Source: Rubrivivax gelatinosus IL144 (GTDB lineage: Bacteria > Pseudomonadota > Gammaproteobacteria > Burkholderiales > Burkholderiaceae_C). Taken from it: a stretch of DNA of 64,000 nt. The position numbers and the translations under genes were made by a program. This document shows positions 951 through 23,653 of this stretch, one piece after another. Positions within the stretch are counted from its first letter, which is position 1; every line of letters starts with the position of its first letter. The stretch is from positions 2,356,001 to 2,420,000 of the forward strand of contig NC_017075.1 of assembly GCF_000284255.1 (NCBI RefSeq), read 5' to 3'. The notes under the pieces are model-generated. The model made no database searches and was not told the DNA's origin. It worked only from the letters and a program-made list of their open reading frames with translations.

Positions 951-1901
951 TCAGGCGGCGACGATCTTCACGATGCGCGCGCAGGCCCACCAGGCGGCGA
1001 CACTGCCCATCGCGTAGAGCGCCGGCCCCCGCGTGCGCGCGAAGCCGGGCCAGGGCGCCAGCGCGCGGCAGACGGCCCAGGCGGCGGCGATGACCAGCAG
1101 CTGGCCGATCTCGACGCCGACGTTGAAGCCGACCAGCGCCGTCAGCAGATGGTTCTCGGGCAGGCCGAACTGGCGCAGCGCGCCGGCGAAGCCCAGCCCG
1201 TGCACCAGGCCGAAACCGAAGGCCACCAGCGCCGGCCAGCGCCGCGACAGCGTGTCCTCGCGCCGCAGCGCCTCGGCGGCGACGAGCACGATCGACAGCG
1301 CGATCGTCGCCTCCACCGGCGGCGGCCGCAGCGACAGCCAGCCCAGAGCGCTTAAGGCCAGCGTCAGGCTGTGCGCGACGGTGAAGGCGGTGACGGTCCA
1401 GACCAGCCGGCGGTTGAAGCCGACCAGGAACAGCAGCCCGGCGACGAACATCAGGTGGTCGGTGCCGGTCAGGATGTGCTGCACGCCCAGGCCGACGTAG
1501 GCGCGGGCGATCTCGGCGAAACCGCGCCGGTCCTCGGCGCTGCCGAAGAGCTGCACCTCGGGCTGGGCCGCGGTCAGCGTCGCGACGCGCGAGCCGCCGT
1601 CGCGCCAGAACATCTTGACGATGACCGCCGAGTAGCGTTTGCCGACGCCGTCGACGGCGAGCCGGCCCTTGAGCCCGGCGTCGCCGCAGCGCAGCAGGTT
1701 GCCGTCTGCCGTGCACGGCGCCGGCCAGCGCGGCACGAGGTCGGTGCCGACCGGGCGCGCGGTGGCCGTCCACTGCCAGAGGAACTCGCCCGGCGCGGTC
1801 TCGCGCAGTTCCATCTCGGCGATGCTCATCTCGTGCGCCGCGGCGGCGCCGGCGACCAGCGCCAGCCAGGCGAGCAGCAGCCCGCGCAGCACGCGCCTCA
1901 T
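951..1901 (-). CDS. HupE/UreJ-like membrane protein with periplasmic N-terminal domain
   Basis: A 316-residue protein. Residues 1-22 form a signal peptide ending in AAA before HEM. A periplasmic beta-rich domain follows (about 23-135), then six or seven membrane helices. The motif HILTGTDHLMF (His142, Asp148, His149), His177 in VAHSLTLA and GFGLVHGLGFAG are the polar intramembrane signature of the HupE/UreJ_2 group, whose relatives are thought to move nickel or cobalt. Its start overlaps the stop of the PpiC-like gene as ATGA, so both are co-translated. The metal is unknown. Confidence 0.82.
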   Translation of the reverse strand: MRRVLRGLLLAWLALVAGAAAAHEMSIAEMELRETAPGEFLWQWTATARPVGTDLVPRWPAPCTADGNLLRCGDAGLKGRLAVDGVGKRYSAVIVKMFWRDGGSRVATLTAAQPEVQLFGSAEDRRGFAEIARAYVGLGVQHILTGTDHLMFVAGLLFLVGFNRRLVWTVTAFTVAHSLTLALSALGWLSLRPPPVEATIALSIVLVAAEALRREDTLSRRWPALVAFGFGLVHGLGFAGALRQFGLPENHLLTALVGFNVGVEIGQLLVIAAAWAVCRALAPWPGFARTRGPALYAMGSVAAWWACARIVKIVAA

Positions 1902-2770
1902 CGCGCCGCCTCCTCGACGCGCACGCGGTACTTCCTGGCCAGCTCGCGCACGGCGGCGGTGCGGCGTTCGGCCATCACCGTGTCGGTCCAGTCCTGCAGC
2001 AGCACGCCCTGCAGGGCCTCGAACTGCGCCAGGCGGCCCGGCGTCGAGCCGTCGACGCGGATCGCGCGCCAGCCGTCCTTGGCGTGCAGCGCGTGCCATT
2101 CGCCGGGCGTGGCCTCGGCCAGCGCGGCGGCGAAGTCCTCGCCGTAGCTCGGCGCCAGGCTGGCTTGCGGCCGGCCCTTGAAGACTCGCAGCCCGGCGTC
2201 GAGCTCGCCCGGCGCGCCGTGGTTCAGGCGTTCGACCAGCGCGCGTACCGCGCTCTCGCTGGCCTCGCCGGCGAGCACGGCTTCCTGGAAGTCGAAACGC
2301 GGCGGCTCGTCGTACTTGGCGCGGTGGGCCTCGAACCAGGCGCGCAGCGTCTTCTCGTCGGCGGCGGGCGGCTTCAGATTCGCGTCGACGACCGACAGCG
2401 CCTTGAAGATCACACGCTCGCGGATCGCGTCGTCGCCGCGGTCGACCTGCAGCGCCAGGCCTTCGCGGTACAGCACCTCGTTGTCGACCCAGACCTGGCG
2501 CAGCGCGGCCAGCTCCTTGGCGTCGGGGTCGCGGCCGCGCGAGCCGCGGAACAACTCGCGCGCCTTGTCGTCGACCTCGGCGCCGACGACGATGGTGCGC
2601 GGGTCCTCGCTCGCGCCGACGATCCAGTGGTCGACGGCGAACAGCGCGACGCCGGCGATCGCGAAGTGCAGCAGCGGCTCGCGCAGCCAGCGCGGCAGCG
2701 GCCGGCGCGGCGCCGGGGTGGAGGAGGGCGCGGCGGCGGCGCCCGGCGGGGATGTCAGCTCGTTGGACAT
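1898..2770 (-). CDS. Membrane-anchored PpiC-type peptidyl-prolyl isomerase-like protein
   Basis: A 290-residue protein with a Pro/Ala-rich cytoplasmic N-terminus, one membrane helix near residues 33-51 (LLHFAIAGVALFAVDHWIV), and a periplasmic SurA/PpiC-like chaperone and parvulin region (VWVDNEVLYREGLAL, then FDFQEAVLAG and GWRAIRVDG). It probably assists folding of an exported partner. It is coupled by an ATGA overlap to the HupE/UreJ-like gene and lies downstream of the DUF3604 gene, separated from it by an intrinsic terminator at 2817-2846. The parvulin domain is divergent, so isomerase activity is uncertain. Confidence 0.75.
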   Translation of the reverse strand: MSNELTSPPGAAAAPSSTPAPRRPLPRWLREPLLHFAIAGVALFAVDHWIVGASEDPRTIVVGAEVDDKARELFRGSRGRDPDAKELAALRQVWVDNEVLYREGLALQVDRGDDAIRERVIFKALSVVDANLKPPAADEKTLRAWFEAHRAKYDEPPRFDFQEAVLAGEASESAVRALVERLNHGAPGELDAGLRVFKGRPQASLAPSYGEDFAAALAEATPGEWHALHAKDGWRAIRVDGSTPGRLAQFEALQGVLLQDWTDTVMAERRTAAVRELARKYRVRVEEAAR

Positions 2771-5189: not shown

Positions 5190-5223
5190 ATCCTAGGAAT
5201 CGGTCATGAAGCGTCCGTGACGC
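5190..5223 (-). promoter_or_regulatory. PhoB-type box and -10 for the DUF3604 gene
   Basis: On the minus strand GCGTCAC-GGAC-GCTTCAT (5223-5206) forms two 7-base half-sites with a 4-base spacer. TAGGAT follows 10 bases later (5195-5190) as a -10-like hexamer. A third weaker repeat, CCGCCAC, lies one 11-base period upstream (5234-5228). This spacing matches the known PhoB box layout in which the box replaces the -35. The predicted leader is about 75 bases. Confidence 0.62.
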
Positions 5224-5281
5224 TTGCGTGGCGGCGCCGGCGCCGCGGCAACCGGCTTCAGGGGGCCGGCGACGTGCTCTG

Positions 5282-5719
5282 CTAGAGGAAGCGGCCGTAG
5301 TCGACGTTGAGCGTCGCGGCCACCGTGCCGCCGCGTTCGAACACCAGTTCGAGGGGGTAGCTGCGCGCGATCTCCAGCGGGTGGCGCAGGCCGACCAAGC
5401 GCAACGTCGGGCCGCCGTCGCCGAACACCGTCTCGCGGCCGGCAGGGATCGGGACGTCGACGCCGTCGTGGCCGTCCACCCGGGCCCCCGTCGCCACCGG
5501 CGAGCGCAGCGCGACGAGGCGGTCGTCGCTCGCGACCTCGTCGATCTTCAGGCTGACGATGCAGCTGTCGGCGTAGGGCGCGGTGGCGCGTGTCCACGGG
5601 TGCGTGACGCGCAGCGTCGTCGCGAAGAACTCGCAGGCGCGGGCGCGCGGCAGTACGGCGGCAGTGCACAGCAGCAGGCCGGCCTGGAGCAGGGCGCGGC
5701 GCGACGGGGCAGGGGACAT
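5282..5719 (-). CDS. PCu(A)C/DUF461-like exported protein with degenerate copper site
   Basis: A 145-residue protein with a Tat-like signal (SRRALLQAGLLL) and mature sequence from about residue 29. VTHPWTRATAPYA and PLELVFERGGTVAATLNV match the start and end of the PCu(A)C periplasmic copper-chaperone fold. The usual His/Met ligands are mostly missing: the conserved HLML segment reads PTLRL, and the first ligand loop keeps only His84. It may bind another metal or none. The start at 5719 is supported by GGAG and the signal peptide. It diverges from the spermidine-synthase-like gene, with PhoB-like boxes for both between them. Confidence 0.7.
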   Translation of the reverse strand: MSPAPSRRALLQAGLLLCTAAVLPRARACEFFATTLRVTHPWTRATAPYADSCIVSLKIDEVASDDRLVALRSPVATGARVDGHDGVDVPIPAGRETVFGDGGPTLRLVGLRHPLEIARSYPLELVFERGGTVAATLNVDYGRFL

Positions 5720-5750
5720 CTCGTGACTCCGGCAAGGCGTGGCGCGCACG

Positions 5751-5784
5751 ATGCTGGCGACGCTCGATGAAGCCGGCGTGACAG
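5751..5784 (-). promoter_or_regulatory. PhoB-type box and -10 for the PCu(A)C-like gene
   Basis: On the minus strand CTGTCAC-GCCG-GCTTCAT (5784-5767) is followed after 10 bases by CAGCAT (5756-5751). The second half-site is identical to that of the DUF3604 promoter. It also forms the left arm of an 8-bp inverted repeat (5777-5784 with 5793-5800) shared with the divergent promoter. Confidence 0.58.
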
Positions 5785-5792
5785 TCCCCACG

Positions 5793-5826
5793 CTGTCACG
5801 AAAGCGTCGCCGCTGCGGCCTATCGT
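5793..5826 (+). promoter_or_regulatory. PhoB-type box and -10 for the spermidine-synthase-like gene
   Basis: CTGTCAC-GAAA-GCGTCGC (5793-5810), preceded one period upstream by CAGTCCC (5782-5788), is followed after 10 bases by TATCGT (5821-5826). The predicted transcription start falls about 3 bases before the ATG at 5836, and no Shine-Dalgarno sequence is present, so the message may be leaderless. Confidence 0.58.
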
Positions 5827-5835
5827 CACCCGCCC

Positions 5836-8382
5836 ATGGCAGCGCTGACCCTCGACGAGCGCAGCGCGCGGCGGCCGGGCCTCGGCGCGCCGGCCGCGCT
5901 CGGGCTGATGCTGGCCTCGGGCTTCTCGGGCCTGGGGCTGCAGATCGTCTGGACGCGCCAGGGCGCGCTCTGGCTGGGCCACGAGACGGCGGCGGTGCTG
6001 GCCGTCGTCGCCGCCTTCTTCGCCGGGCTGGCGCTGGGCGCGTCGACGCTGGGCGCCTGGCTGGAACGCAGCGCCCGGCCGGTGCGCGGCTACGCCTTCT
6101 GCGAAGCGCTGATCGGCTCGTGGAGCCTGGTGCTGGCCGCCTTCGGTGCCCGGGCCGGCGGCTGGCTGGCGGCGCTGGCCGGCCCGGCGCCCGCGCCGGC
6201 CTGGCAGTGGACCGTCGCGTTCGCCGCGACCTTCGTGCTGCTGCTGCCGGCGACCGCGGCGATGGGCGCGACGCTGCCGGCGCTGCAGCGGGCGCTGGCC
6301 GGTCGGCCCGGGGCTTCGGTGGCGGCGCTGTACGCCGCCAACACCGCCGGCGCGGTGCTCGGCGTGCTGCTGCTGGCCTTCTGGCTGCTGCCTTCGATCG
6401 GGCTGGTGCGCAGCGCCGCGGTCTGCGCGGCGCTGAACCTGGGCTGCGCGCTGCTGGCGCCGGCGGTGCTCGGCGGCCCGCTGGCCCCGGCGCCGCGGCG
6501 CGACGCGGCGGCCGCGGCGTCGCTGCTGCCGCGCCTGGCGGCGACCGGGCTGCTGGGCATCGGCTACGAGGTGATCGTCGTGCGTGTGCTCGGCCAGGTG
6601 GCCGAAGACACGGTCTACACCTTCGCGCTGCTGCTGGCGGTCTACCTGGTCGGCAGCGCGGCCGGCGCCGCCTGGCAGGCGCGGCGGCCGGCGGCCAGCG
6701 TCGACGGCCTGCTGCGCGCCTTGGCCGCGGCCTGCCTGGCCGGCGGTGCCAGCCTGTGGTTCGCGCCGGCGATCAAGGCCGCGGTGCTGGCGGCGGGCGG
6801 CGCGAGCTACGGCGCGGCGCTGGCCGCCGAGGCGGTGCTGGCGCTGGCCGCGTTCGCGCTGCCGACGCTGCTGATGGGTGCCCTCTTCGCCCGTCTGGCC
6901 GAGCAGGGCGTCGCCGCCGGCCTGGGCCTGGGCCGGCTGCTCGGGCTCAACACGCTGGGGGCGGCGGTGGCGCCGCTGGTCTTCGGCGTCGGGCTGCTGC
7001 CGGCGGCGGGCGCCAAGGTGGCGCTGGCCGTCGTCGCCGCGGGCTACCTGGCGCTGGCCTCGGCGGCGGCGCTGCGTTCGCGCGCCACCTGGGCCGTCGG
7101 TGCCGCGGCCGGCGCGATGGTGATCGCGGCGCCGGCGCTGGTCTTCGTCGACCTGCCGCCCGGCGGCCGGCTGCTGGCGCTGCACGAAGGCGCGACGGCG
7201 ACGGTCAGCGTCGTCGAGGACGCCGGCGGCAGCGCCTGGCTGAAGATCGACAACCGCGCCCCCGAAGGCAGCAGCGCCACGCGCTGGGCCGACGCGCGCC
7301 AGGCCTGGCTGCCGCTGCTGCTGCACCCGGACCCGCGGCACGCGCTGTTCCTGGGGCTGGGCACCGGCATCACCGCGGCCTCGGCCGCCGAAGATCCGCG
7401 GCTCACCGTCGACGCCGTCGAACTGCTGCCCGAGGTCGCGGCGCTGTCGCCGCGTTTCACCGCCGGTTTCGCCACCGGCGACCGGCTGCGGATCGTCGTC
7501 GCCGACGCGCGCCGCCACGTGCGCGCCAGCCGGGAACGTTACGACCTCGTCGTCGCCGACAACGTGCATCCGGCGCGCAGCGGCAGCGGCAACCTGCTGA
7601 CCGCCGAACATTTCGCCGCGGTGCACGAACGCCTGGCCGCGGGCGGCCTGTTCTGCCAATGGCTGCCGCTGCACCAGATGGATCTGGAGAGCCTGCGCAG
7701 CGTCGTGCGCGCCTTCCGCGAGGTCTGGCCCGACGCGGTGGCGGTGCTGGCGACGAACAGCCTGGACACGCCGGTGCTGGGCCTGATCGGCCGCGCCGGC
7801 GGCACGCGGCTGTCGCCCGAGGCGCTGCACCAGCGTTTGCGCAGCGCGCCGCAGGCGTCACGCTGGGGTTTCGACGACGAGTTCGCGCTGCTGGGCAGCG
7901 TGATCGCCGGCCCGCGTGCGCTGGCGCGTCTGTCGGCCGACGCGGCCGTCAACAGCGACGACCGCCCCTTCGTCGCCTACCGCGCGCCGCGCCTGAGCTA
8001 CGCGCCGGACTCGCGCCCGCGCGATCGCCTGCTGGCGCTGCTGGCCGCGCTGGACGTCGCGGCCGACGAGCTGCCGGCCGACCCCGGCGCGTTGGCGCCG
8101 CGGCTGGCGGCGTACCGTCAGGCGCGCGACCGATTCCTCGCCGCCGGGCGCGAGGTCGTGCCCAGCGCCGACGTGCGACGCATGCTGGCCCAGGTGCAGG
8201 CGCCGCTGCTGGACGCCCTGCGCCTGAGCCCCGACTTCCGCCCGGCCTACGAGCCGCTGGTGGCGATGGCGGTGGCGCTGGCGCCGCAGGACCCGGCCGC
8301 CGCACGCGACCTGCTGGCCGAACTGGTGCGCCTGCAGCCGGCCTGGCCCGAAGCCCGGCAGATGCTCGACGGGCCGCGCTGA
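5836..8382 (+). CDS. Fused membrane / spermidine-synthase-like protein
   Basis: An 848-residue protein. About residues 20-450 hold some twelve hydrophobic helices. A class I methyltransferase-like domain of the spermidine synthase type follows, with LGLGTGITAAS near 505 as nucleotide-binding loop, VDAVELLPEV, then RYDLVVADNVHP and LFCQWLPLHQMD, and a helical C-terminus from about 730. Such fusions are widespread but their product is mostly unknown; aminopropyl transfer to a membrane or exported substrate is possible. No Shine-Dalgarno precedes the ATG, and an in-frame ATG 24 codons later is an alternative start. Confidence 0.82.
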   Translation: MAALTLDERSARRPGLGAPAALGLMLASGFSGLGLQIVWTRQGALWLGHETAAVLAVVAAFFAGLALGASTLGAWLERSARPVRGYAFCEALIGSWSLVLAAFGARAGGWLAALAGPAPAPAWQWTVAFAATFVLLLPATAAMGATLPALQRALAGRPGASVAALYAANTAGAVLGVLLLAFWLLPSIGLVRSAAVCAALNLGCALLAPAVLGGPLAPAPRRDAAAAASLLPRLAATGLLGIGYEVIVVRVLGQVAEDTVYTFALLLAVYLVGSAAGAAWQARRPAASVDGLLRALAAACLAGGASLWFAPAIKAAVLAAGGASYGAALAAEAVLALAAFALPTLLMGALFARLAEQGVAAGLGLGRLLGLNTLGAAVAPLVFGVGLLPAAGAKVALAVVAAGYLALASAAALRSRATWAVGAAAGAMVIAAPALVFVDLPPGGRLLALHEGATATVSVVEDAGGSAWLKIDNRAPEGSSATRWADARQAWLPLLLHPDPRHALFLGLGTGITAASAAEDPRLTVDAVELLPEVAALSPRFTAGFATGDRLRIVVADARRHVRASRERYDLVVADNVHPARSGSGNLLTAEHFAAVHERLAAGGLFCQWLPLHQMDLESLRSVVRAFREVWPDAVAVLATNSLDTPVLGLIGRAGGTRLSPEALHQRLRSAPQASRWGFDDEFALLGSVIAGPRALARLSADAAVNSDDRPFVAYRAPRLSYAPDSRPRDRLLALLAALDVAADELPADPGALAPRLAAYRQARDRFLAAGREVVPSADVRRMLAQVQAPLLDALRLSPDFRPAYEPLVAMAVALAPQDPAAARDLLAELVRLQPAWPEARQMLDGPR

Positions 8383-8386
8383 ACGC

Positions 8387-10450
8387 TCAGGCGCAGGCCT
8401 CGGGTTCGGGCTCGCGCGCCGTCCCGCGCGCCAGCAGGCGCTCGAACGCCGCCGCCGGCACCGGGCGCGAGAACAGGTAACCCTGCTGCAGCACGCAGCC
8501 GCGGCCGAGCAGGAAGGCCGACTGTTCCTCGGTCTCCACGCCCTCGGCGACCACCTGCAGGCCGAGTTCGCTGCCCAGCGTGATGATCGCCGCGGCCAGC
8601 GCGCCGTCGCGGCCGCCGCGCGCGACGTCGGTGACGAAGGCGCGGTCGATCTTCACCTCGGTCATCGGCAGGCGGTTCAGGTAGCTCAGCGACGAGTAGC
8701 CGGTGCCGAAGTCGTCCAGCGACAGGCCGTAGCCGCGTGCGCGCAGCCGCTCCAGCACCTCGACGGCCGTGTTCACGTCCCGCATCAGCATCGTTTCGGT
8801 CAGCTCCAGCACCAGGCACGACGGCTCCAGGCCGTGCACCATCATCAGCTCGTCGAGCTGGTCGGCCAGACGGCTGTCGACCAGGCTCACCGCCGGCAGG
8901 TTGACCGACAGCGGCAGCGGCCGCAGCCCGGCCTCGGCCCAGCGCCGCTGGCTGGCGCAGGCGGCGTGCAGCACCCAGTCGGTCAGCGGCACGATCAGCC
9001 CGCTCTCCTCGGCCAGCGCGATGAAGCGGCCCGGCGGGATCAGCCCGCGTTCGGGATGCTGCCAGCGCACCAGCGCCTCGGCGCCGACGATGCGCCCGTT
9101 GCGCGCGTCGACCTTGGGCTGGTAGTGCAGGCAGAGCTGGCCGGCCTCGATCGCGTGGCGCAGCTCGGTCTCGAGCAGCGCGCGCTCGCGCGAGCGTGCG
9201 TTCAGCGCTTCGTCGAAGAACTGGTGCCGCGCGCCGCCGGCGGCCTTGGCCGCGCGTGCGGCCAGTTCGGCGCAGCGCATCAGGCCGGCGACGTCCTGTG
9301 CGTCGCCGGGGCACAGCGCGATGCCGAAGCTGGCCGTCAGCAGCAGCGGCCGCGCCCGGCCTGCGAGCTCGACCGGCTGGCGGATCGCCGCCTGCAGCCG
9401 CTGCGCCACGAGTGCCGCGCGTTCCTGGCTGTCCAGGTCGGTGACCAGCACCGAGAAGGCGTTGTCGCCGAGGCGGGCGACGACGCCGTCCTCGTCGGCC
9501 ACCGGCGCCAGCGCCGCCAGGTCGCCGCCGCGGATCATCGAGCGCACGCGCTGGGCGACGATGGCCAGCACCGCGTCGCCCTGGCCGTGGCCGTAGACGT
9601 CGTCGATGCTGCCGAAGCGGTCGATCTCGGCGTGCAGCACCGCGCAGCCGCGCGCGCCGCGGCGCGCACGCTCCAGCGCGGTGGCGGCGAGTTCGCCGAA
9701 CAGGCGGCGGTTGGGCAGGCCGGTGATCTCGTCGTAATGCGCCAGCAGCTGGGCGCGCAGCTCGGCCGCGGCGCGCGAGTCGTCGAGTTCGGCGCGTGCC
9801 ATGAACTCCTTGCGCAGCACGAACTCGCGCCACCAGCCGATGCCCGAGGCGAGGATGAACAGCGTGCCGACGTGGTAGCTCCAGTAGGCGGCCTCGCGCA
9901 GCGTCAGCGCCTCGTGGCCCCACAGCGCGACCTCGAAGGCCGCGAGGATCGCCAGCCCCGAGACCAGCGCGTAGCGGAACTGCACGCCCAGCACGACGAA
10001 GCAATAGAACTGCAGGAAGGTGAAGTTCAGCACCCCGACCCAGCTCGTCAGCCCGGCGCCGCCCTCGGCGTCCAGGCGCTGCAGGATCACGAACAGGCAC
10101 AGCGCGGCCGTGACGATGAACCCCGCCATCACCGGCTGCCAGTGGCGCCGCCAGCGCGGCTGCAGCGAATAGGCCAGCCCGGCCAGCAGCACCGGCACGG
10201 CCAGCGTCAGGCGCAGCAGGTTGGCGCCGTCGCCGCGGTGGGCGAGGCAGTCGACGAGGTAGTCGCCGGCGATCAGCACGATGCCCAGCACCAGGCTGGC
10301 CTGGGCGAAGCGGAAGTAGTAGGCGACGTAGTGGCGCAGGAAACGCTGCTCGAACGCCGCGTCGGCGAATCGCAGCAGCAGCCGCAGCGGCAGCGCGGTG
10401 GCGGGCGGACGGGCGTGGCCGCCGGGTGTTGGGGTTTCGGGAGCGTGCAT
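8387..10450 (-). CDS. Membrane EAL phosphodiesterase with degenerate GGDEF domain
   Basis: A 687-residue protein with about six N-terminal membrane helices (about 35-215), a GGDEF-type domain and a C-terminal EAL domain. The GGDEF active loop reads RLGDNAF, so cyclase activity should be lost. The EAL domain keeps its catalytic motifs (GAEALVRW, LSVNLPA, LELTET, LDDFGTGYSS, VKIDRAF, VAEGVET), which predicts c-di-GMP hydrolysis. The ATG at 10450 has a weak ribosome site; an in-frame ATG at 10519 with GACGAG upstream would add 23 residues. It converges with the spermidine-synthase-like gene. Confidence 0.88.
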   Translation of the reverse strand: MHAPETPTPGGHARPPATALPLRLLLRFADAAFEQRFLRHYVAYYFRFAQASLVLGIVLIAGDYLVDCLAHRGDGANLLRLTLAVPVLLAGLAYSLQPRWRRHWQPVMAGFIVTAALCLFVILQRLDAEGGAGLTSWVGVLNFTFLQFYCFVVLGVQFRYALVSGLAILAAFEVALWGHEALTLREAAYWSYHVGTLFILASGIGWWREFVLRKEFMARAELDDSRAAAELRAQLLAHYDEITGLPNRRLFGELAATALERARRGARGCAVLHAEIDRFGSIDDVYGHGQGDAVLAIVAQRVRSMIRGGDLAALAPVADEDGVVARLGDNAFSVLVTDLDSQERAALVAQRLQAAIRQPVELAGRARPLLLTASFGIALCPGDAQDVAGLMRCAELAARAAKAAGGARHQFFDEALNARSRERALLETELRHAIEAGQLCLHYQPKVDARNGRIVGAEALVRWQHPERGLIPPGRFIALAEESGLIVPLTDWVLHAACASQRRWAEAGLRPLPLSVNLPAVSLVDSRLADQLDELMMVHGLEPSCLVLELTETMLMRDVNTAVEVLERLRARGYGLSLDDFGTGYSSLSYLNRLPMTEVKIDRAFVTDVARGGRDGALAAAIITLGSELGLQVVAEGVETEEQSAFLLGRGCVLQQGYLFSRPVPAAAFERLLARGTAREPEPEACA

Positions 10451-10675
10451 CGGGGTGCAGACAAGCCGGTTCGAGAGCGCCGGGCGCGGCTCCCGCGCCG
10501 CCCGGCTTGCGACCATCATCTCGTCACGAATGACGCTTGGCTGAGGCCCGCCCGACGCGAAGCGCAGGCTCGAGTGACATCTGCACGGGGCGCGGGGTGG
10601 GTAAACCAGGAAGGCGGTCGCCGGTCCGTCGCGGCTTGATCGACGTCATGCCCGGTGATATCGTTGTTGCAACTC

Positions 10676-10691
10676 ATTCGCAATAGCGAAT
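10676..10691 (+). promoter_or_regulatory. Candidate Fur-type operator upstream of the TonB receptor
   Basis: An inverted repeat ATTCGC-AATA-GCGAAT lies 48 bases before the TonB receptor start in an AT-richer patch. With the preceding GCAACTC it resembles the imperfect palindromes seen at iron-regulated genes. The match to a Fur box is partial, so the assignment leans on the gene it precedes. Confidence 0.35.
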
Positions 10692-10738
10692 CTTCTCATC
10701 ACCGACTCCGGCACGGCTTCCGGCCTGCCGTCTTCCCC

Positions 10739-12898
10739 ATGAGCCGATCCCTCCGCGCGCGGCGCCCGCGCCGCGCGATGCCCGTCTGTTGCCTCAACGC
10801 GGTGCTCGCCGCGCTGCCGCTGTCGGCCGCGGCCGCCGACGGCGCCGCCGACACGACGGCACAGGCCCCGACGTCCGAAGTCGTCGTCGTCACCGCCACG
10901 CGCGGCAGCAAGGCGCTGGACAAGATCCCCGGCGCCGTCAGCGTCATCTCGCGCAGCGACATCGACACCCAGGGCCTGGTCAGCGAGGACCCGAGCGCGC
11001 TCTTGTCGCTGCAGGTGCCGGGTTACGCGCCGGCGCGGCAGAAGCTGACGAACTTCGGCGAAGGCCTGCGTGGGCGCAACGCGCTGCTGCTGCTGGACGG
11101 CATCCCGCAGACCAACCCGCTGCGTTTCGGCGGCCGCGAGGGCTATTTCGCCGACCCGATGATCGTCGAGCGCATCGAGGTCGTCAGCGGCGCCTCGGCG
11201 GTGCAGGGCATGGGCGCCACCGGCGGCATCGTCAACACGATCACGCGCCGGCCCACCGAGGTCGGCACGCGCCAGACCGTCGAACTCAAGTACGGCACCC
11301 AGGCGCACGCCGACACGCAGTCCTGGAAGACCGGCTACATGGTCGAGCACAAGAGTGCCGAGGCCGACGGCTGGGACCTGCTGGCCTACGTCGGCCTGCG
11401 CAGCCAGGACGTCGGCATCGACGGCGCCGGCCGATACCTCGCCACCGAGTCGCTGCACCGCGCCGGCGACGCCTTCGTCAAGATCGGCCGCGACTTCGGC
11501 GACCAGCGCCTGCAGCTGATGCTCAACCGCTTCGACGCCGACGGCTTCGACGACTGGGTCGACGTGCCCGGCGACCGCGACGCCGGGCGGCCGACCACCT
11601 CGCGCCCCGGCACGCCGGCCTGGGACGCGCCGCGCAACCGCGTGCGTTCGGCCAGCCTGGAGTGGAGCCACGCCGACCTGGGCGGCGGCTACGCCAGCGC
11701 CCAGCTCTTCAAGCAGGACTTCGAGGCGCGCTACAGCGGCGGCGTCATCTCGACCTTCCAGGACGCGGCCATCGCCCCGGTGGGCACGCTGGTCGACCAG
11801 AGCGAGATCGAGGCCGACAAATGGGGCCTGCGCACGAGCTGGGTGCGGCCCGACGCCGGCATCGCCGGCCTGGAGTTCACCGCCGGCGTGGACCTGCTGC
11901 ACGACACCTCGTCCCAGCGCCTGACGCAGACCGGCCGCACCTGGGTGCCGCCGCTGCGCTACGAGAGCCTGGCGCCGTTCACCCAGCTCGAATACACACG
12001 CGGCAACCTGACGCTGCGCGGCGGCCTGCGCGACGAGCGCAACTCGCTGGACGTCGCCGACTACCGCACGCTCGCGTTCTACGGCAACCGCGCCGTCGAA
12101 GGCGGCAAACGCGACGCGCACGAGCTGGTCAAGAGCCTGGGCGGCGTCTGGCGCTTCGACGCCAGCGGCTGGTCGGCCTTCGCCTCGTACAACGAAGGTT
12201 TCGGCCCGCCCGACGCCGGCCTGATCCTGCGCGCGGTGAAGACCGCCGGCCAGTCGGTCGACAAGCTCGTCGACCTGCAGCCCGTCGTCACGCGCAACCG
12301 CGAGCTCGGCGTCAGCTGGCGCGGCGCGACGGCCAACTTCAGCGCCTCGGTCTACCGCTCGCGTTCGGACCTGGGCAGCCAGATCATCGTCGTCAACGGC
12401 ATCGGCAGCGTGCAGCGTGTGCCGATCGAGGTGAAGGGCTTCGAGTTCGCCGGCCAGTGGCGGCCGCTGCCGGCGCTGCGCCTGGACGCGACCTACGCCC
12501 GCACGCGCGGCCGCACCGCCGCGGCGGCCGGTGAGCCGCTGGACCTGGACCTCGGCGCACGCTCGCAGGGCCCGGACAAGCTGGTGCTCGGCGGCCAGTG
12601 GGCCTTCGCGCCGGCCTGGCGCGCGCAGCTCAACGTCGCGCGCTGGTTCTCGCGCGACGCCAACGAAGGCAAGTTCAGCGGCAGCACCTCGCTGGAGGAG
12701 CACTTCGAGGGTTACACCGTCGCCGACCTCGCGCTGCGCTGGGCCTCGCCCTGGGGCGAACTCGGCGCCGGCATCGAGAACCTGTTCGACCGCCGCTACA
12801 TCACCTACTACAGCCAGTCGCACTACGCCGGCACCGACGACGACTACTACGCCGGCCGCGGCCGCACGCTGACGATGAGCTGGCGGCGCAGCTTCTGA
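10739..12898 (+). CDS. TonB-dependent outer-membrane receptor, probably ferric-siderophore
   Basis: A 719-residue receptor with an N-terminal signal sequence, a TonB box-like EVVVVTATRG near residue 48, a plug domain (IPGAVSVISRSDI, GLRGRNALLLLDGIP, IERIEVVSGASAVQGMGATGGIVN-type sequence) and a long beta-barrel ending in aromatic-rich strands (YAGRGRTLTMSWRRSF). The terminal Phe fits barrel assembly. It imports a metal chelate using TonB energy; iron is the likely cargo given the PepSY protein 8 bases downstream and the candidate Fur site upstream. The ATG at 10739 is chosen over one 28 codons earlier because it best fits the signal peptide. Confidence 0.9.
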   Translation: MSRSLRARRPRRAMPVCCLNAVLAALPLSAAAADGAADTTAQAPTSEVVVVTATRGSKALDKIPGAVSVISRSDIDTQGLVSEDPSALLSLQVPGYAPARQKLTNFGEGLRGRNALLLLDGIPQTNPLRFGGREGYFADPMIVERIEVVSGASAVQGMGATGGIVNTITRRPTEVGTRQTVELKYGTQAHADTQSWKTGYMVEHKSAEADGWDLLAYVGLRSQDVGIDGAGRYLATESLHRAGDAFVKIGRDFGDQRLQLMLNRFDADGFDDWVDVPGDRDAGRPTTSRPGTPAWDAPRNRVRSASLEWSHADLGGGYASAQLFKQDFEARYSGGVISTFQDAAIAPVGTLVDQSEIEADKWGLRTSWVRPDAGIAGLEFTAGVDLLHDTSSQRLTQTGRTWVPPLRYESLAPFTQLEYTRGNLTLRGGLRDERNSLDVADYRTLAFYGNRAVEGGKRDAHELVKSLGGVWRFDASGWSAFASYNEGFGPPDAGLILRAVKTAGQSVDKLVDLQPVVTRNRELGVSWRGATANFSASVYRSRSDLGSQIIVVNGIGSVQRVPIEVKGFEFAGQWRPLPALRLDATYARTRGRTAAAAGEPLDLDLGARSQGPDKLVLGGQWAFAPAWRAQLNVARWFSRDANEGKFSGSTSLEEHFEGYTVADLALRWASPWGELGAGIENLFDRRYITYYSQSHYAGTDDDYYAGRGRTLTMSWRRSF

Positions 12899-12906
12899 GC
12901 GCCACG

Positions 12907-14010
12907 ATGCGCAAGGCGCTCGCCGCGCTGCACCGCTGGGCCGCGCTGGCGGCCGGCGCGCTGCTGCTGGTCCTGGGGCTCAGCGGCAGCCTGATGGTCT
13001 GGCAGGCCGAAGTCGACGCGGCGCTGAACCCGGCCTGGTTCGCGCCGCCGGCGCTGCGCTGCACGCCGGCCGAACGCCCGGTCGCGACGACGCTGGCGCT
13101 GCTGGCCCAGGCCGCGCCGGGCGCGAAGCCGGCGATCGTCGTCGCGCCGGCCGTGCCGGGCGCCGCCTACCAGGTCTGGGAGCGGCGCGACGGCCGCGGC
13201 CTGCGGCGCGAGCATTTCGTCGACGCCGACTGCGGCCGCTACCTCGGCACGCGGCTGCGTGGTGACGCGCGCCTGGACCGCGCCCACGCCGTGCCGCTGC
13301 TCTACGAACTGCACAGCCGGCTGCTGGCCGGCGAGACGGGGCACACCGTCGTCGGCGTCGGCGCGCTGGTCTTGCTGGCGCTGGCGCTCAGCGGCCTCTG
13401 GCTGGCGCTGCCGCGGCGCCACGGCCTCGAGGCCTGGCGGCGCGTGCTGAGCGTCAGACGCGGCAGTGCCGGGCCGCGCTTCTGGTACGAGCTGCACCGC
13501 GCCGCCGGCCTGTGGCTGCTGCCGCTGGCGTTGCTGCTGCCGCTGACCGGCGCGGCGCTGGTCTTCGCCGACGCGAGCAAGGCGCTGGTCGGCACGGTGC
13601 TGCCACTGCAGCCCTGGCCGCGCCTGGCGCGCGGCGATGCGGCGCCGGCGCGTCTGGCGCCCGACGACTATGTGGCGCGCGGCGCGGCGCTGTTCCCGCA
13701 GGCGCGCTGGTCGCGCCTGACGCTGCCCGATGCCGGCGGCACGGCCGAACTGCGCCTGCTGCAGCCCGGCGAAGCGCGCGCCGACACCGGCATGACGCGG
13801 GTACGGCTCGATGCCGAGGGCCGCGTCGTCGCGGTGCACGACCCGCTGCGCGCACCCGCCGGCAACCGCGTCGTCGACTGGATGTTCCCGCTGCACAGCG
13901 CCGAGACGCTGGGCCTCGTGGCCCGGCTGCTGTGGACGGTGTTCGGCCTGCTGCCGGCCTTGCTGCTGGGCAGCGGGCTGTGGTTGTGGTGGCGGCGCCG
14001 GCGGCGGTGA
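12907..14010 (+). CDS. PepSY-associated transmembrane protein, putative ferric reductase partner
   Basis: A 367-residue inner-membrane protein with four main membrane spans: near 16-34 (LAAGALLLVLGLSGSLMVW), about 143-165, about 197-220 and about 340-362. A periplasmic PepSY-like region lies between them (RLDAEGRVVAVHDP). Paired histidines in the helices (LHRWAAL, ELHSRLLAG, ELHRAAGLW, PLHSAET) are typical of this family and may bind heme. It starts 8 bases after the TonB receptor, so the two form an iron-uptake operon where this protein may reduce the imported iron. The reductase role is inferred from relatives. Confidence 0.82.
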   Translation: MRKALAALHRWAALAAGALLLVLGLSGSLMVWQAEVDAALNPAWFAPPALRCTPAERPVATTLALLAQAAPGAKPAIVVAPAVPGAAYQVWERRDGRGLRREHFVDADCGRYLGTRLRGDARLDRAHAVPLLYELHSRLLAGETGHTVVGVGALVLLALALSGLWLALPRRHGLEAWRRVLSVRRGSAGPRFWYELHRAAGLWLLPLALLLPLTGAALVFADASKALVGTVLPLQPWPRLARGDAAPARLAPDDYVARGAALFPQARWSRLTLPDAGGTAELRLLQPGEARADTGMTRVRLDAEGRVVAVHDPLRAPAGNRVVDWMFPLHSAETLGLVARLLWTVFGLLPALLLGSGLWLWWRRRRR

Positions 14011-14037
14011 CGGCGAAGCCGGCCGCGCCCGGCGTGT

Positions 14038-17043
<3,006 letters not shown>

Positions 17044-17265
17044 CGCTCCCCTCGGCCACCATCGGACCACGTGCACGCAGGGTGCAACGCCGGGCACGCC
17101 TCGCGGCGCGCCCGTGGGGCGGCGGTGACCCCCCGTCACGCCGGCCCTGGCTCCGGACCCTCGACCCTGCTTCTACACCGGGCCGCGAGCGGCCGCCCTA
17201 GGATGAACCAAGGTCGAGTCCGTCAGCTTGGCAATCGACGCCGGAGGCGGCGGCCGGCGCCCGCA

Positions 17266-19563
<2,298 letters not shown>

Positions 19564-19638
19564 TGCCCCATCGTAGCCAAGCGCGCCGGCCGTGCCGCGC
19601 CGGCCCCTCGGTCAGGGTGACGAGGCGCGCCGGGCGCT

Positions 19639-21498
19639 TCAGGCCCAGGCTTTCAGCGCGCGCAGCAGCGGCCGCTTCTTCTCCTGGTGCGCCTGCATGC
19701 GGCGCAGGATGTCGTCGAGCGTGCGGATGGCCTCGACGACGTACGGCCCCTTGTTGAGCATCACGCACTCGGCACGCCCGGCCATCGCCGCGTCGGTGAT
19801 CTCGGCGCGGCTGGGCTGGCCGGTCTTGGCCAGGCCTTCGAGCACCTGGGTGGCCCAGACCACCGGCAGGTGCGCGGCCTCGCAGGCCCAGAGGATCTCC
19901 TCCTGCACCTCGGCCAGGCGCTCGAAGCCGCACTCCACCGCCAGGTCGCCGCGCGCGATCATCACGCCGGCCGCCGGGCCGGCCATCGCCGCCAGCAGGA
20001 TCTCCGGCAGGGCCTCGAAGCCGCGCCGGGTCTCGACCTTCAGCATCAGCGCCGGCGACGGGCCGGGCAGGGCGGCGAGCGCCGTGCGCAGCGCCTGCAC
20101 GTCGGCCGCGCACTGGGTGAACGACAGCCCGACCAGGTCGGCATGCGCGGCCACGGCCGGCAGGTCGGCCAGGTCCTGGGCGGTCAGCGCCGGCAGGTCC
20201 AGCAGCGTGTCGGGCAGGTTGATGCCCTTGTCGGCGCCGAGCTTCTGGCCGCCGTCGCGGGCATGGGTGATCTCGACCTCGACCTTGCGCGTGCCGCTGC
20301 GGCGCACGACGCCGCCCAGGTGGCCGTCGTCGAACCAGACGCGGTCGCCCTTGCGCACCTGGGCCAGGGCCTGCGGCAGCGTGCAGCCGATGGCCGGCAG
20401 CGCGGCCTCGGGGTCGGCCGGGTGGGCTTCGCGCTCGGGCTGCAGCGTCAGCCGCATGCCGCGGTGCAGCAGCAGCGCGCCGGGCTCGCGCGGCAGCGCC
20501 TGCAGGCGTGCGCCCCTGGTGTCGCCGGTACGCAGGACTTCGGTCGTCTCGCCCAGCCAGAGGCTGCGCCGGCACTCCAGCAGCACGCCGGCGCTGCGCC
20601 GCTCCGCGACGCGCAGGCGGCGGCGCCGGCCGCGCGTGTCGACGAGCTCGACGCGGTCGCCGGCGTCCAGCGCCTCCAGCCAGTCGCGCTCGACGGCCAA
20701 TGTCAGCGCTGCGCCCGGCACCTCGCCGGCGTCGCCTGCGGCGCGCAGCCCCAGCCGCGCCGGCTGCAGGCAGCGGCCCAGCGCGTCGCGCTCCGGGCGC
20801 AGGTGGGCCACCGCCGGCCCGGGGCGCAGCGCGCCGGTGCGCAGCTTGGGCCCGCCCAGGTCCATCAGCACGCGCACCGGGCGGCCGCAGCGGCGCGCGT
20901 GGTGGCGCACGCGCCGGGCCATCGCTTCCCAGGCCGCGGCGTCGTCGTGGGCGCAGTTGATGCGCGCGATGTCCATGCCGGCGGCCACCAGCGCGGCCAC
21001 CAGCGTGTCGTCCTGCGCCGCCTCGCTGGGCAGGGTGACCATGATGCGGGCGCTGCGCTCGGCCGGCGCTGCGCCCAGCAGGGCCTCGGTGTGGCGGGCC
21101 AGCAGCCGCCCGCCCTGGCCCAGGCCGGCCGGCTCCTCCTGCCGGCGCGAGGCCCAGTCGCGGCCGACGATGCGGTGCAGGATGCCCAGCACCTGGTCGA
21201 GGTTGGCGAGCACGTGGGTCTCGGCGCGGCCCAGCGAGGACAGGCCGATGCCGGCCAGCCGCTCCTGCACGCGGCGCAGGTCGTAGCGGCGCAGCGCCAG
21301 GTAGTGCGCGAGGTTGGCGGCACTGGCGCGGTAGGCCGGGTCGACGCCGGCGAGCTGGGGCGCCAGCCGCGCCTCGTGCTCGAGCATCGATTCGCGCAGC
21401 ACCTGCAGCTCGGCGATCAGCGCCTCGCAGCCGGTGCGGTCCCAGGGTTCGGCGCTGGCGCCGGCGGCGGCTTCGGCGCCGTGGGTGGACAGGTTCAT
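19639..21498 (-). CDS. Atypical pyruvate-kinase-like protein with N-terminal extension
   Basis: A 619-residue protein. Residues 1-145 are a helical extension absent from housekeeping pyruvate kinase. A pyruvate-kinase barrel follows: ARIMVTLPSE, AGMDIARINCAH, MDLGGPKLRTG near 211-221, catalytic-type Lys487 and Glu489 (LKVETRRGFE), MIARGDLAVE and VWATQVLEGL. The usual NFSH is NCAH, and the C-terminal regulatory domain is missing after the barrel. It may be a kinase for another enolphosphate or an altered regulatory form. The ATG has GGGAGAAG upstream. It diverges from the glycosyltransferase behind PhoB-like sites. Confidence 0.72.
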   Translation of the reverse strand: MNLSTHGAEAAAGASAEPWDRTGCEALIAELQVLRESMLEHEARLAPQLAGVDPAYRASAANLAHYLALRRYDLRRVQERLAGIGLSSLGRAETHVLANLDQVLGILHRIVGRDWASRRQEEPAGLGQGGRLLARHTEALLGAAPAERSARIMVTLPSEAAQDDTLVAALVAAGMDIARINCAHDDAAAWEAMARRVRHHARRCGRPVRVLMDLGGPKLRTGALRPGPAVAHLRPERDALGRCLQPARLGLRAAGDAGEVPGAALTLAVERDWLEALDAGDRVELVDTRGRRRRLRVAERRSAGVLLECRRSLWLGETTEVLRTGDTRGARLQALPREPGALLLHRGMRLTLQPEREAHPADPEAALPAIGCTLPQALAQVRKGDRVWFDDGHLGGVVRRSGTRKVEVEITHARDGGQKLGADKGINLPDTLLDLPALTAQDLADLPAVAAHADLVGLSFTQCAADVQALRTALAALPGPSPALMLKVETRRGFEALPEILLAAMAGPAAGVMIARGDLAVECGFERLAEVQEEILWACEAAHLPVVWATQVLEGLAKTGQPSRAEITDAAMAGRAECVMLNKGPYVVEAIRTLDDILRRMQAHQEKKRPLLRALKAWA

Positions 21499-21521
21499 CG
21501 GTCGGTCTTCTCCCGGCAGCC

Positions 21522-21555
21522 ACTCTGCGCCCGCCGCATGGCGTTTTCGTGACCG
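21522..21555 (-). promoter_or_regulatory. Candidate PhoB-type box for the pyruvate-kinase-like gene
   Basis: On the minus strand CGGTCAC-GAAA-ACGCCAT (21555-21538) with CAGAGT 10 bases later (21527-21522). It is the weakest of the six sites, but it has the same spacing and overlaps the divergent site of the glycosyltransferase. Confidence 0.42.
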
Positions 21556-21586
21556 TCACCGGCGCGTCACGGCCGGGCCCCAGGAT
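21553..21586 (+). promoter_or_regulatory. PhoB-type box and -10 for the glycosyltransferase gene
   Basis: CCGTCAC-CGGC-GCGTCAC (21553-21570), two near-identical half-sites at the PhoB spacing, then 10 bases, then CAGGAT (21581-21586). The predicted transcript begins at or within a base or two of the ATG at 21593. AGGA inside the -10 could alternatively act as a ribosome site if transcription begins further upstream. Confidence 0.62.
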
Positions 21587-21592
21587 GCGGCC

Positions 21593-22753
21593 ATGACGAC
21601 GATCGACCTCGTCTACTTCAACGCCGGCGGCGGCCATCGGGCCGCGGTGCAGGCGCTGCAGGAGACGGCGAAGGAACAGGGCCGGGCGTGGAACCTGCGC
21701 CCGGTGAACCTGGTGCGCGTGCTGGACCCCGGCGCGAGCTTCCAGCGCCTCACCGGCTTCGAGCCCGAGGACTACTACAACCTGCGGCTGCGCCGCGGCT
21801 GGACCGCCGGCCTGGGCCACGAGCTCAAGCTGCTGCAGGGCCTGATCCGCCTGGCGCACCGGCCGATGCTCTCGGCGCTGCGGCGCCACTGGCTGCAGAG
21901 CCGTCCCGACCTCGTGGTCTCGGTCGTGCCCAACTTCAACCGCGTGCTCGGCGAGTCGGTGCAGGCCGCCTGGCAGGACCTGCCCTTCGCCACGGTGATG
22001 ACCGACCTGGCCGACCACCCGCCGCGCTTCTGGATCGAGCCGCGGGTCGAGCAGCACCTGGTCTGCGGCACGCCGCGTGCGGCCGAGCAGGCGCTGGCCG
22101 CCGGCGTGCCGGCCTCGCGCCTGCACCGCGTCTCGGGCATGGTGCTGCGGCCGGCCTTCTACCGCCCCGCCTCCGGCGACCGGCGCGTCGACCGTGCTGC
22201 GCTCGGCCTGGACCCCGACCGCCCGGTGGCCGCGGTGATGTTCGGCGGCCACGGCTCGCGCCAGATGCTGAAGATCGCGCGCGCGCTGGGCGACGTGCAG
22301 CTGGTGCTGCTGTGCGGCCACAACGCGGCGCTGCAGACCGAGCTGGCGGCGATGCGCCGCGCCGCGCCGCACGTCGCGCTGGGCTTCACGCAGAACGTGC
22401 CTCGGGTGCTGCAGCTGGCCGATGTCTTCGTCGGCAAGCCGGGGCCGGGCTCGATCAGCGAGGCGGTGCAGCTCGGCCTGCCGGTGCTGACCATCGAGAA
22501 CGCCTCGACGCTGCCGCAGGAGCGCTACAACGTGCAGTGGCTGCGCGAGCTGGGGCTGGGGCTGGCCGTGGGCTCGCTGCGCGAGCTGCCGCAGGCCATG
22601 GCCGAGCTGCTGCAGCGCCTGCCGCAGTACCAGGCGCGTGTGCGCTGGGTCGACAACCGCGCCGCGGCCGAGGTGCTGGATGTCTTCGACGAGCTGCTGC
22701 GCCCGCGCCGGGCGCAGTTCCCCGACGACGAGCCCGAGGCGCTGGCCGCCTGA
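21593..22753 (+). CDS. MGDG-synthase-type glycosyltransferase, probable glycolipid synthase
   Basis: A 386-residue GT-B enzyme of the MurG/MGDG synthase group. Residues 10-15 (NAGGGH) are the acceptor-side glycine loop, FATVMTDLADHPPRFW follows, and the C-terminal donor site shows MFGGHGSRQM and GKPGPGSISEAVQLGLP. Relatives transfer a sugar from a UDP-sugar to diacylglycerol at the inner membrane. It lies end to end with plcP, whose product releases diacylglycerol, and it has a PhoB-like promoter, so it probably makes glycolipid to replace phospholipid when phosphate is short. Sugar and linkage are unknown. Confidence 0.8.
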   Translation: MTTIDLVYFNAGGGHRAAVQALQETAKEQGRAWNLRPVNLVRVLDPGASFQRLTGFEPEDYYNLRLRRGWTAGLGHELKLLQGLIRLAHRPMLSALRRHWLQSRPDLVVSVVPNFNRVLGESVQAAWQDLPFATVMTDLADHPPRFWIEPRVEQHLVCGTPRAAEQALAAGVPASRLHRVSGMVLRPAFYRPASGDRRVDRAALGLDPDRPVAAVMFGGHGSRQMLKIARALGDVQLVLLCGHNAALQTELAAMRRAAPHVALGFTQNVPRVLQLADVFVGKPGPGSISEAVQLGLPVLTIENASTLPQERYNVQWLRELGLGLAVGSLRELPQAMAELLQRLPQYQARVRWVDNRAAAEVLDVFDELLRPRRAQFPDDEPEALAA

Positions 22754-22759
22754 GCCGGT

Positions 22760-23611
22760 TCAGGCGACCGGCTCGGCTTCGGCGCGGGCTTCGGCCGGCG
22801 CGGGCAGGGCGGCGGCCGGTGCTCGGCGCCCGCCGCGCACGATCTCCAGCCGGCCGTCGGCGTGTTCGACGAGCGCCGTCAGGCTCTCGACCCAGTCGCC
22901 GTCGTTGCAATAGAGCACGCCGTCGATGGTACGGATCTCGGCGTGGTGGATGTGGCCGCAGACGACGCCGTGCGCGCCGCGCCGGCGCGCCTCGTGCGCG
23001 AGCACGGTCTCGAAGTCGTCGATGTAGCTCACCGCGCGCTTGACCTTGTGCTTCAGGTAGCCCGACAGGCTCCAGTACGGCAGGCCGAAATGCGCGCGGG
23101 CGCGGTTGAACCAGCGGTTGAGCTCCAGGGCCAGCGTGTAGGCGGCGTCGCCGACGTGCGCCAGCCAGCGCGCGTGCTGCACGATGCCGTCGAACAGGTC
23201 GCCGTGGGTCACCCAGAGCACGCGGCCGTCGGCGGTCTCGTGCAGGCAGTCCTCGACGACCTCGACGCCGCCGAAGCTCAGCTCGACGTAGCGTCGCGCG
23301 AAGCCGTCGTGGTTGCCGGGCACGAAGACCACGCGTGTGCCCTTGCGCGCCTTGCGCAGGATCTTCTGCACGACGTCGTTGTGCGCCTGCGGCCAGTACC
23401 AGCTGCGTTTGAGCTGCCAGCCGTCGACGATGTCGCCGACCAGGTACAGCGTCTCGCATTCCAGGTCGCGCAGGAAGGCGAGCAGCGGCTGCGCCTGGCA
23501 GCCGGGCGTGCCGAGGTGGATGTCGGAGATCCAGGCCGTGCGCACCCGCAGCGGCACGCCGTCCGCGGCGCCGTCTCGGGCGTCGGGCGGGGAGGAGGGC
23601 GCCGTCTGCAT
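22760..23611 (-). CDS. plcP: PlcP-type phospholipase C (metallophosphoesterase)
   Basis: A 283-residue calcineurin-like phosphoesterase. The metal ligands are in place: Asp30 and His32 (SDIHLG), Asp60 (LVGDIVDGW), Asn100 and His101 (PGNHD), the HGD of VTHGDLFDG and GHIHHAE. LKRSWYWPQAHNDVVQ and HARWLAHVGD are highly characteristic of PlcP, the phosphate-starvation phospholipase C first described in Sinorhizobium, rather than of the lipid A enzyme LpxH that such genes are often named after. It would cut phosphatidylcholine or phosphatidylethanolamine to diacylglycerol. The gene converges with the glycosyltransferase and has its own PhoB-like promoter. Confidence 0.84.
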   Translation of the reverse strand: MQTAPSSPPDARDGAADGVPLRVRTAWISDIHLGTPGCQAQPLLAFLRDLECETLYLVGDIVDGWQLKRSWYWPQAHNDVVQKILRKARKGTRVVFVPGNHDGFARRYVELSFGGVEVVEDCLHETADGRVLWVTHGDLFDGIVQHARWLAHVGDAAYTLALELNRWFNRARAHFGLPYWSLSGYLKHKVKRAVSYIDDFETVLAHEARRRGAHGVVCGHIHHAEIRTIDGVLYCNDGDWVESLTALVEHADGRLEIVRGGRRAPAAALPAPAEARAEAEPVA

Positions 23612-23619
23612 GGACCGGC

Positions 23620-23653
23620 ATCGTCGCCGGCCGGCGTGACGGCGTGGTGACGC
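23620..23653 (-). promoter_or_regulatory. PhoB-type box and -10 for plcP
   Basis: On the minus strand GCGTCAC-CACG-CCGTCAC (23653-23636), then 10 bases, then GACGAT (23625-23620). The same two half-site types as in the glycosyltransferase promoter appear in swapped order. The predicted start of transcription is 2-3 bases before the ATG at 23611, and no Shine-Dalgarno is visible. Confidence 0.62.

Follow-up and report, generated by a model that had tools for sequence, protein, structure and literature searches.

Do the closely similar promoters of several unrelated genes in one stretch of the genome of Rubrivivax gelatinosus IL144, a photosynthetic bacterium, belong to a single phosphate-starvation (Pho) regulon driven by the response regulator PhoB? 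We analysed a window of 64 kb (the whole stretch of 64,000 bases, C1:2356001-2420000) of this genome (G000), which consists of one contig of 5,043,253 bases. The original prediction, made by eye, had proposed six sites, each with two 7-base half-sites separated by 4 bases and with a -10-like hexamer 10 bases further on. All six sites and their hexamers were found where it had placed them; the 7-4-7 layout was present at all six, and at four of them the sequence was also strict. These six sites are very probably PhoB boxes lying 10 bases before a -10 element, and a Pho regulon together with the proposal of leaderless mRNAs developed below appears to be the best explanation of their sequences.

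The putative Pho boxes are distributed as follows. On the minus strand, the box of a DUF3604-like gene, GCGTCAC-GGAC-GCTTCAT (5206..5223), is followed after 10 bases by TAGGAT (5190..5195), and an extra half-like heptamer, CCGCCAC, lies 11 bases upstream of this box. The gene of a PCu(A)C protein carries CTGTCAC-GCCG-GCTTCAT (5767..5784, minus) and, at the same distance, CAGCAT (5751..5756); an MFS/spermidine-synthase-like gene on the plus strand carries CTGTCAC-GAAA-GCGTCGC (5793..5810) and TATCGT (5821..5826). Further along, CGGTCAC-GAAA-ACGCCAT (21538..21555, minus) with CAGAGT (21522..21527) precedes a pyruvate kinase gene (pyk), CCGTCAC-CGGC-GCGTCAC (21553..21570, plus) with CAGGAT (21581..21586) precedes agt, and GCGTCAC-CACG-CCGTCAC (23636..23653, minus) with GACGAT (23620..23625) precedes plcP, again with 10 bases between box and hexamer in each case. 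The pyk and agt boxes stand head to head and share 3 bases. The pattern SYKTCAY-N4-SYKTCAY, hereafter the strict box, had only four matches in the 64 kb, all among the six sites, while about 0.07 were expected from half-site counts. When tandem half-sites up to 60 bases apart were counted in the window, a spacing of 11 bases accounted for four pairs and every other spacing for one at most. No Rfam family matched the window at gathering scores.

When six sites from elsewhere in the genome were used to train a matrix, the window sites took ranks 1 to 6 of 127,934 positions, with scores of 28.9 to 15.4; the next best window position scored 9.5 and the best position of the reversed control 11.4. 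Because the training sites had been picked with a pattern modelled on the window sites, a motif learned de novo from pstS promoters was used as an independent test. This motif of 34 bases came from 26 pstS promoters of relatives, and no window sequence was used (30 loci were handled; L111, the organism's own, L112, a near one, L125, which was N-filled, and L123, which was mis-called, were dropped, and several called pstS starts in the training loci are too far downstream). It reads TGTCAC-N4-CTGTCAC-N10-TANAGT, and it placed the six sites at ranks 1, 2, 3, 4, 5 and 7 among approximately 128,000 window positions. The two sites that depart from the strict sequence were both high, at rank 1 (MFS/spermidine-synthase-like) and rank 3 (pyk), and the agt box was at rank 7 with a score of -4.35. 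For comparison, plcP scored 0.54, one unrelated window position -3.79 and the best reversed-control position -0.89.

Throughout the genome, the strict box had 13 matches, compared with one in the reversed control, and one of the 13 sits a short way before pstS, within the pst-phoU operon. When the heptamer was relaxed slightly and a -10 hexamer was required at the same distance, there were 10 matches in the genome and none in the reversed control. All 10 lay upstream of a gene in the correct orientation; about 5.1% of strand positions fall in the 120 nt that precede a called gene (155 kb sampled, the window plus ten stretches). The ten targets are the DUF3604-like, PCu(A)C, agt and plcP genes in the window and, outside it, the genes of PstS, a fasciclin-domain lipoprotein, a 5'-nucleotidase, an ExeM/NucH-like nuclease, a phytase-like protein and an OlsB-like acyltransferase; the 5'-nucleotidase (nadN-like), the nuclease (for the piece covered) and the acyltransferase are below model cut-offs. 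Most of the other genomic matches thus named precede genes of phosphate scavenging or of phosphorus-free lipid synthesis. The pstS and fasciclin-domain lipoprotein genes form a divergent pair in which a separate Pho box, its -10 at 10 bases, precedes each gene (L022 8327-10056; C1:3541326-3543055). Furthermore, the genes of PhoB (TIGR02154, 336 bits, cut-off 296) and of PhoR (TIGR02966, 379 bits, cut-off 334) are part of the pst operon. The DNA-binding domain of this PhoB can be aligned to E. coli PhoB structures (1gxp and others), and it retains the stretch RTVDVHxxRLRxAL, which we take to be the recognition helix, with lysine for arginine at one x position.

Strict boxes without the -10 pattern were also seen upstream of a penicillin-acylase-family gene, a porin gene and the gene of a TctC-type receptor (L021 4589-4606, L024 4289-4306 and L025 3810-3827), and these may be real. 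Strict-box matches that fall within glgC-like or phage-like genes, together with a match next to a GNAT-like gene and with no gene downstream of it (names by eye), were taken as chance.

Conservation was assessed in loci of relatives fetched regardless of boxes, with a score of 12 as the box threshold. The six window sites went into the blended scoring matrix along with six further sites of this genome, and its scores on them are in-sample. The relatives are related by descent, many are classed in one genus and the L029 and G024 loci look like one species, so that p-values overstate independence. Of the agt promoters, 21 of 33 had a box at threshold (44 loci, 36 with the search motif, 33 distinct promoters examined, 2 dropped), and of the plcP promoters 20 of 26, a count that excludes the box-fetched loci L155, L170 and L196 (23/29 when pooled). 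The corresponding counts were 6/12 for psd (phosphatidylserine decarboxylase, identified by family search in L073 and by shared motif in the other loci) and 13/23 for olsB (30 loci, 24 with the search motif, 23 examined, 1 dropped). As a control, none of 50 other genes of this genome reached the threshold, and only 2 of 3641 reversed 300-nt pieces (L027-L273) did so, with scores of 15.3 and 16.5; a smaller reversed control on part of the loci gave 0/1617, and reversed 200-nt sampling peaked at 16.5. The head-to-head pair of pyk and agt boxes, with its 3-base overlap, keeps the same register in L027, L028 and L029/L052. The named relatives of agt at 87-95% identity are from two Rubrivivax gelatinosus strains and R. 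benzoatilyticus. We also observed psd near agt and plcP under Pho boxes in L073 (590-3519), L061, L064, L068 and L075.

The boxed pyruvate kinase gene (19639..21498, minus) encodes a PRK14725-type enzyme, a second isozyme (NF011314, 759 bits, cut-off 642). Only its barrel domain was found with Pfam, and no PK_C domain, and the genome holds another pyruvate kinase frame of ordinary length. Among 15 pyruvate kinase loci, the start could be placed in 11, and six of these promoters carried a Pho box (L203, L205, L207-L210) with moderate scores of 12.4 to 16.8; the promoter in L204 has a further box with the -10 one base closer. The neighbours, named by eye after homologues, were agt in L207 and L209, a GT4-like gene in L203 and L208, and GDPD-like and phnC-like genes around L204/L205. 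Because boxed pyruvate kinase genes stand in differing neighbourhoods, a real Pho link is suggested rather than hitch-hiking on agt.

The DUF3604-like gene (2871..5108, minus) has a leader with GGAG and encodes a protein with a PHP motif (DFHNHTTCSDG) and a signal-peptide-like N-terminus. The CehA/McbA model was weak and below its cut-off, Pfam gave no match, and the homologues, one of them 98% identical in R. gelatinosus, are named DUF3604 by UniRef. The residues of the PHP motif are invariant across 32 aligned sequences. The structure model, with a mean pLDDT of 53, was too poor for a fold search, and a PDB sequence search with the protein gave nothing useful (best E 0.15, an unrelated channel). 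To judge by its motif and N-terminus, the protein would probably be a hydrolase of organic phosphate that acts outside the cytoplasm. A box before this gene or before its apparent PCu(A)C-DUF3604 unit (G034) was found in 9 of 10 genomes, with none in G077. Genes of a PPIC-type prolyl isomerase domain protein (1898..2770, minus) and of a HupE/UreJ-like membrane protein (951..1892, minus) follow downstream, perhaps in the same operon; the order DUF3604-like then PPIC-type is similar in relatives, as judged by eye.

The PCu(A)C gene (5282..5719, minus) encodes a copper-chaperone domain protein (PF04314), and its leader also has GGAG. The divergent gene (5836..8382, plus) encodes a fused MFS/spermidine-synthase-like protein (NF037959, above cut-off). 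The latter gene is boxed in L029/L082, and in L083 and L088 a box stands before a 2OG-oxygenase gene that leads into it. DUF3604-like, PCu(A)C, 2OG-Fe(II) oxygenase and MFS/spermidine-synthase-like genes cluster repeatedly, accompanied by several Pho boxes (L083, L085, L088, L263-L270); in L083 a gene of the glycerophosphodiesterase family comes next, and its box is strong (score 30.0). Elsewhere, a gene with an RWDDHRYYH(Q/H)SRINQ motif (its L174 copy without a Pfam match) carries a Pho box in L174, L177 and L178, as does the GT4-type glycosyltransferase gene divergent from it in L177 and L178.

The remaining two boxed genes of the window, agt and plcP, are predicted to be leaderless. The first (21593..22753, plus) encodes an agt-like glycolipid glycosyltransferase with a GT28 C domain, similar to diglucosyl-diacylglycerol synthase but under that model's cut-off, and the second (22760..23611, minus) a plcP-like calcineurin-type phosphoesterase. 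In this genome, the distance from the -10 to the ATG is short for agt (6 nt), plcP (8), the MFS/spermidine-synthase-like gene (9) and olsB (8), and longer for pyk (23), PCu(A)C (31), the 5'-nucleotidase (31), the nuclease (31), the phytase-like gene (33), the fasciclin gene (38), pstS (51) and the DUF3604-like gene (81). Short distances were thus found for 3/3 lipid genes versus 1/9 others (Fisher p 0.018). Transcription usually begins some 7 nt downstream of the -10, and therefore the mRNAs of short-distance promoters should begin at or next to the AUG.

In promoters of relatives, the first in-frame start after the -10 was binned at up to 11, 12-24 and at least 25 nt. The counts in these bins were 15/0/6 for agt, 18/1/1 for plcP, 5/1/0 for psd, 5/2/6 for olsB and 6/1/21 for pstS. 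Starts within 11 nt were found in 38/47 agt, plcP and psd promoters versus 6/28 pstS promoters (p ~5e-7, relatedness ignored); this is the like-for-like comparison, as an earlier one of 40/50 lipid versus 0/26 pstS promoters had taken the called pstS starts. In the boxed agt, plcP and psd promoters, the ATG is mostly 6-12 nt past the -10. When the start of an agt, plcP, psd or olsB promoter lay within 11 nt, ATG came first in 42 of 43 cases, the exception being L074, with GTG at 3 and ATG at 6. Among the six short pstS cases, five start with GTG or TTG, and the sixth (L135) combines an ATG at 8 with a second one at 38. Across 81 genomes, the pattern with an ATG 4-9 nt past the -10 gave 32 matches in 27 genomes and none when reversed. 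Thirty of these loci were fetched, and they comprised 4 agt, 4 plcP and 4 psd loci (12/30), 9 loci with other frames of at least 60 aa and 9 without any frame of 60 aa. With an ATG at 10-39 nt, the pattern matched in 44 of the 81 genomes, with 4 reversed matches; leaderless promoters would therefore be a class and not the rule. These distances suggest that the boxed agt, plcP and psd promoters give rise to leaderless mRNAs.

Several observations weigh against the Pho-regulon reading. Judged solely by the pstS matrix, plcP is a borderline case and agt would lack significance. Three of the 13 strict-box matches (L017, L018 and L020) have no correctly oriented gene downstream. No box at threshold was found for 12/33 agt, 6/26 plcP, 6/12 psd and 10/23 olsB promoters; some of these belong to genes inside an operon (psd-agt-plcP in L073), which accounts for part of the misses only. 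The box is likewise missing from 5/11 pyk promoters, and none directly precedes the MFS/spermidine-synthase-like gene in 8/8 more distant loci (L083-L090). Since reversed pieces reached 15.3 and 16.5, single boxes in that range, that of pyk included, can be chance. The original prediction had named matrix matches at pst and pho genes as support. Such a match was present at pstS, with the same 10-base distance to the -10. Of the two alkaline phosphatase genes, one has a weak box-like site 34 nt before its ATG that scored 10.2 against the threshold of 12 (L272 1062-1129), and the second (L273) had no box in the promoter scan. The original reading of the six sites as PhoB boxes is supported by the encoded PhoB and PhoR and by the same design at the pstS genes of relatives; it fits less well at the MFS/spermidine-synthase-like and pyk sites, where the second half is degenerate (GCGTCGC and ACGCCAT, respectively).

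These two sites, each back to back with a strict box, could be by-products of the box of the divergent neighbour, which would leave only the four strict sites as PhoB boxes, and the eight distant synthase loci without a directly preceding box agree with this. We consider it improbable, however, because the independent pstS motif puts the imperfect sites at ranks 1 and 3, pyruvate kinase is boxed in other genomes without agt as a neighbour, and the boxed 2OG-oxygenase gene of L083 and L088 leads into the synthase gene. Related response regulators bind related repeats, and the GC content of the boxes exceeds that of E. coli Pho boxes; the boxes might thus belong to another OmpR-family regulator with similar 11-base direct repeats. 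This is highly improbable: a de novo search of 26 pstS promoters yields this very motif, its -10 at the same distance, and the other genomic targets are for the most part genes related to phosphate. The motif is short and degenerate and the sites were picked by eye, yet the probability that they are chance matches in a window of 73% GC is negligible: four strict pairs stand against 0.07 expected, and 10 genome matches, all 10 upstream of genes, against none in the control. Chance and GC composition are ruled out by the half-site expectation, the reversed controls, the motif ranks and the 0/50 result for other genes. A further alternative accepts the boxes but places the true -10 or the true start codon elsewhere, so that the mRNAs would not be leaderless. 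The -10 hexamers match TATAAT weakly, leaders measure 27-31 nt in some orthologues (agt in loci of Hydrogenophaga and of Azohydromonas), the rule of the first in-frame start would also class 6/28 pstS promoters as short, though five of the six starts are GTG or TTG, and an ATG at 10-39 nt is found in more genomes than one at 4-9 nt. On the other hand, the position of the -10 is set by the box spacing seen at pstS, a later start would not fit in the agt of the window, where the conserved YFNAGGGH motif begins a few codons past the ATG, and the agt distances are bimodal, with none at 12-24 nt. This alternative is therefore unlikely, although it carries appreciable weight.

In the available passages of the papers cited here, the E. 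coli Pho box consists of two 7-base direct repeats with 4-base spacers and is bound by PhoB (PMC4415409). The boxes described here are similar in having two 7-base repeats in 11-base units and differ from the E. coli sequence (CTGTCAT) in their GC-rich GTCAC/TTCAT consensus, in the gene set and in that several promoters abut the start codon. In Pseudomonas aeruginosa, homologues of plcP and agt have Pho boxes and phospholipid is replaced by glycolipid (PMC8528852); plcP-agt1 is apparently one operon there, whereas in Rubrivivax plcP and agt are convergent with their own boxes and agt is divergent from pyruvate kinase. A leaderless layout is not among the passages of that paper (PMC8528852). 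In marine bacteria, plcP lies beside a glycosyltransferase gene with predicted PhoB sites, as far as the passages show, and the terms Betaproteobacteria and Burkholderia have no occurrence in the main text (PMC4796936). A Pho regulon with Pho boxes at plcP-agt is of an already known kind. Leaderless mRNAs occur in the Burkholderiales as a minority. They account for 4.67% of primary start sites in Cupriavidus metallidurans (PMC7563307); in Burkholderia cenocepacia, the transcripts of 72 genes begin precisely at the start codon and those of a further 42 (24 of them tRNAs) within 10 nt (PMC4603805). In the passages of these Burkholderiales papers leaderless mRNAs are enriched in transcription functions, whereas here they are predicted for PhoB-driven membrane-lipid enzymes. 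Among the matches listed from the open-licence PMC literature, no report was found of leaderless PhoB-driven lipid genes, of DUF3604 together with phosphate or of a Pho-boxed pyruvate kinase. A Streptomyces review that joins leaderless mRNA and the pho box concerns, in the part available, a different leaderless gene, fkbR, and a low-phosphate experiment on Accumulibacter is described in which the transcription of glycolytic genes, pyk included, differs. What may be new is the predicted leaderless layout of the lipid-gene promoters, the Pho link of a pyruvate kinase without a C domain and the membership of the DUF3604-like and PCu(A)C genes in the regulon.

In the mechanism that we propose, modelled on E. 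coli PhoB, the kinase PhoR would phosphorylate PhoB upon phosphate shortage. PhoB would then bind the tandem repeats, two 11-base units standing in for the -35 element 10 bases before the -10, and recruit sigma-70 polymerase to the six promoters of this 18-kb stretch, and it would likewise drive the pst-phoUBR operon and scavenging genes elsewhere in the genome. As homologues suggest, PlcP would strip phospholipid head groups, Agt would convert the diacylglycerol to glycolipid, and OlsB, encoded elsewhere, would add ornithine lipid. The mRNAs of agt, plcP and olsB here, and of psd in relatives, would start at or within a few nucleotides of the AUG.

We tentatively propose, as a possibility somewhat short of an even chance, that Rubrivivax and its relatives have two classes of PhoB promoters. 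Scavenging genes (pst, phosphatases and nucleases) would have ordinary leaders, whereas the lipid-replacing enzymes (agt, plcP, psd and part of olsB) would form a conserved leaderless class with the promoter fused to the AUG; their translation would need no Shine-Dalgarno contact and would perhaps last when starved cells lose ribosome capacity. The second pyruvate kinase without a C domain would be a recurring member of the regulon, possibly freeing glycolytic flux from sugar-phosphate activators. Motifs noticed by eye have thereby become a testable PhoB regulon for a betaproteobacterium, Rubrivivax, and the little-studied DUF3604-like, PCu(A)C, MFS/spermidine-synthase-like and C-domain-less pyruvate kinase genes gain a physiological context. 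Should the leaderless class prove real, the whole module that exchanges phospholipid for glycolipid would be set apart from the rest of the regulon at the start of translation.

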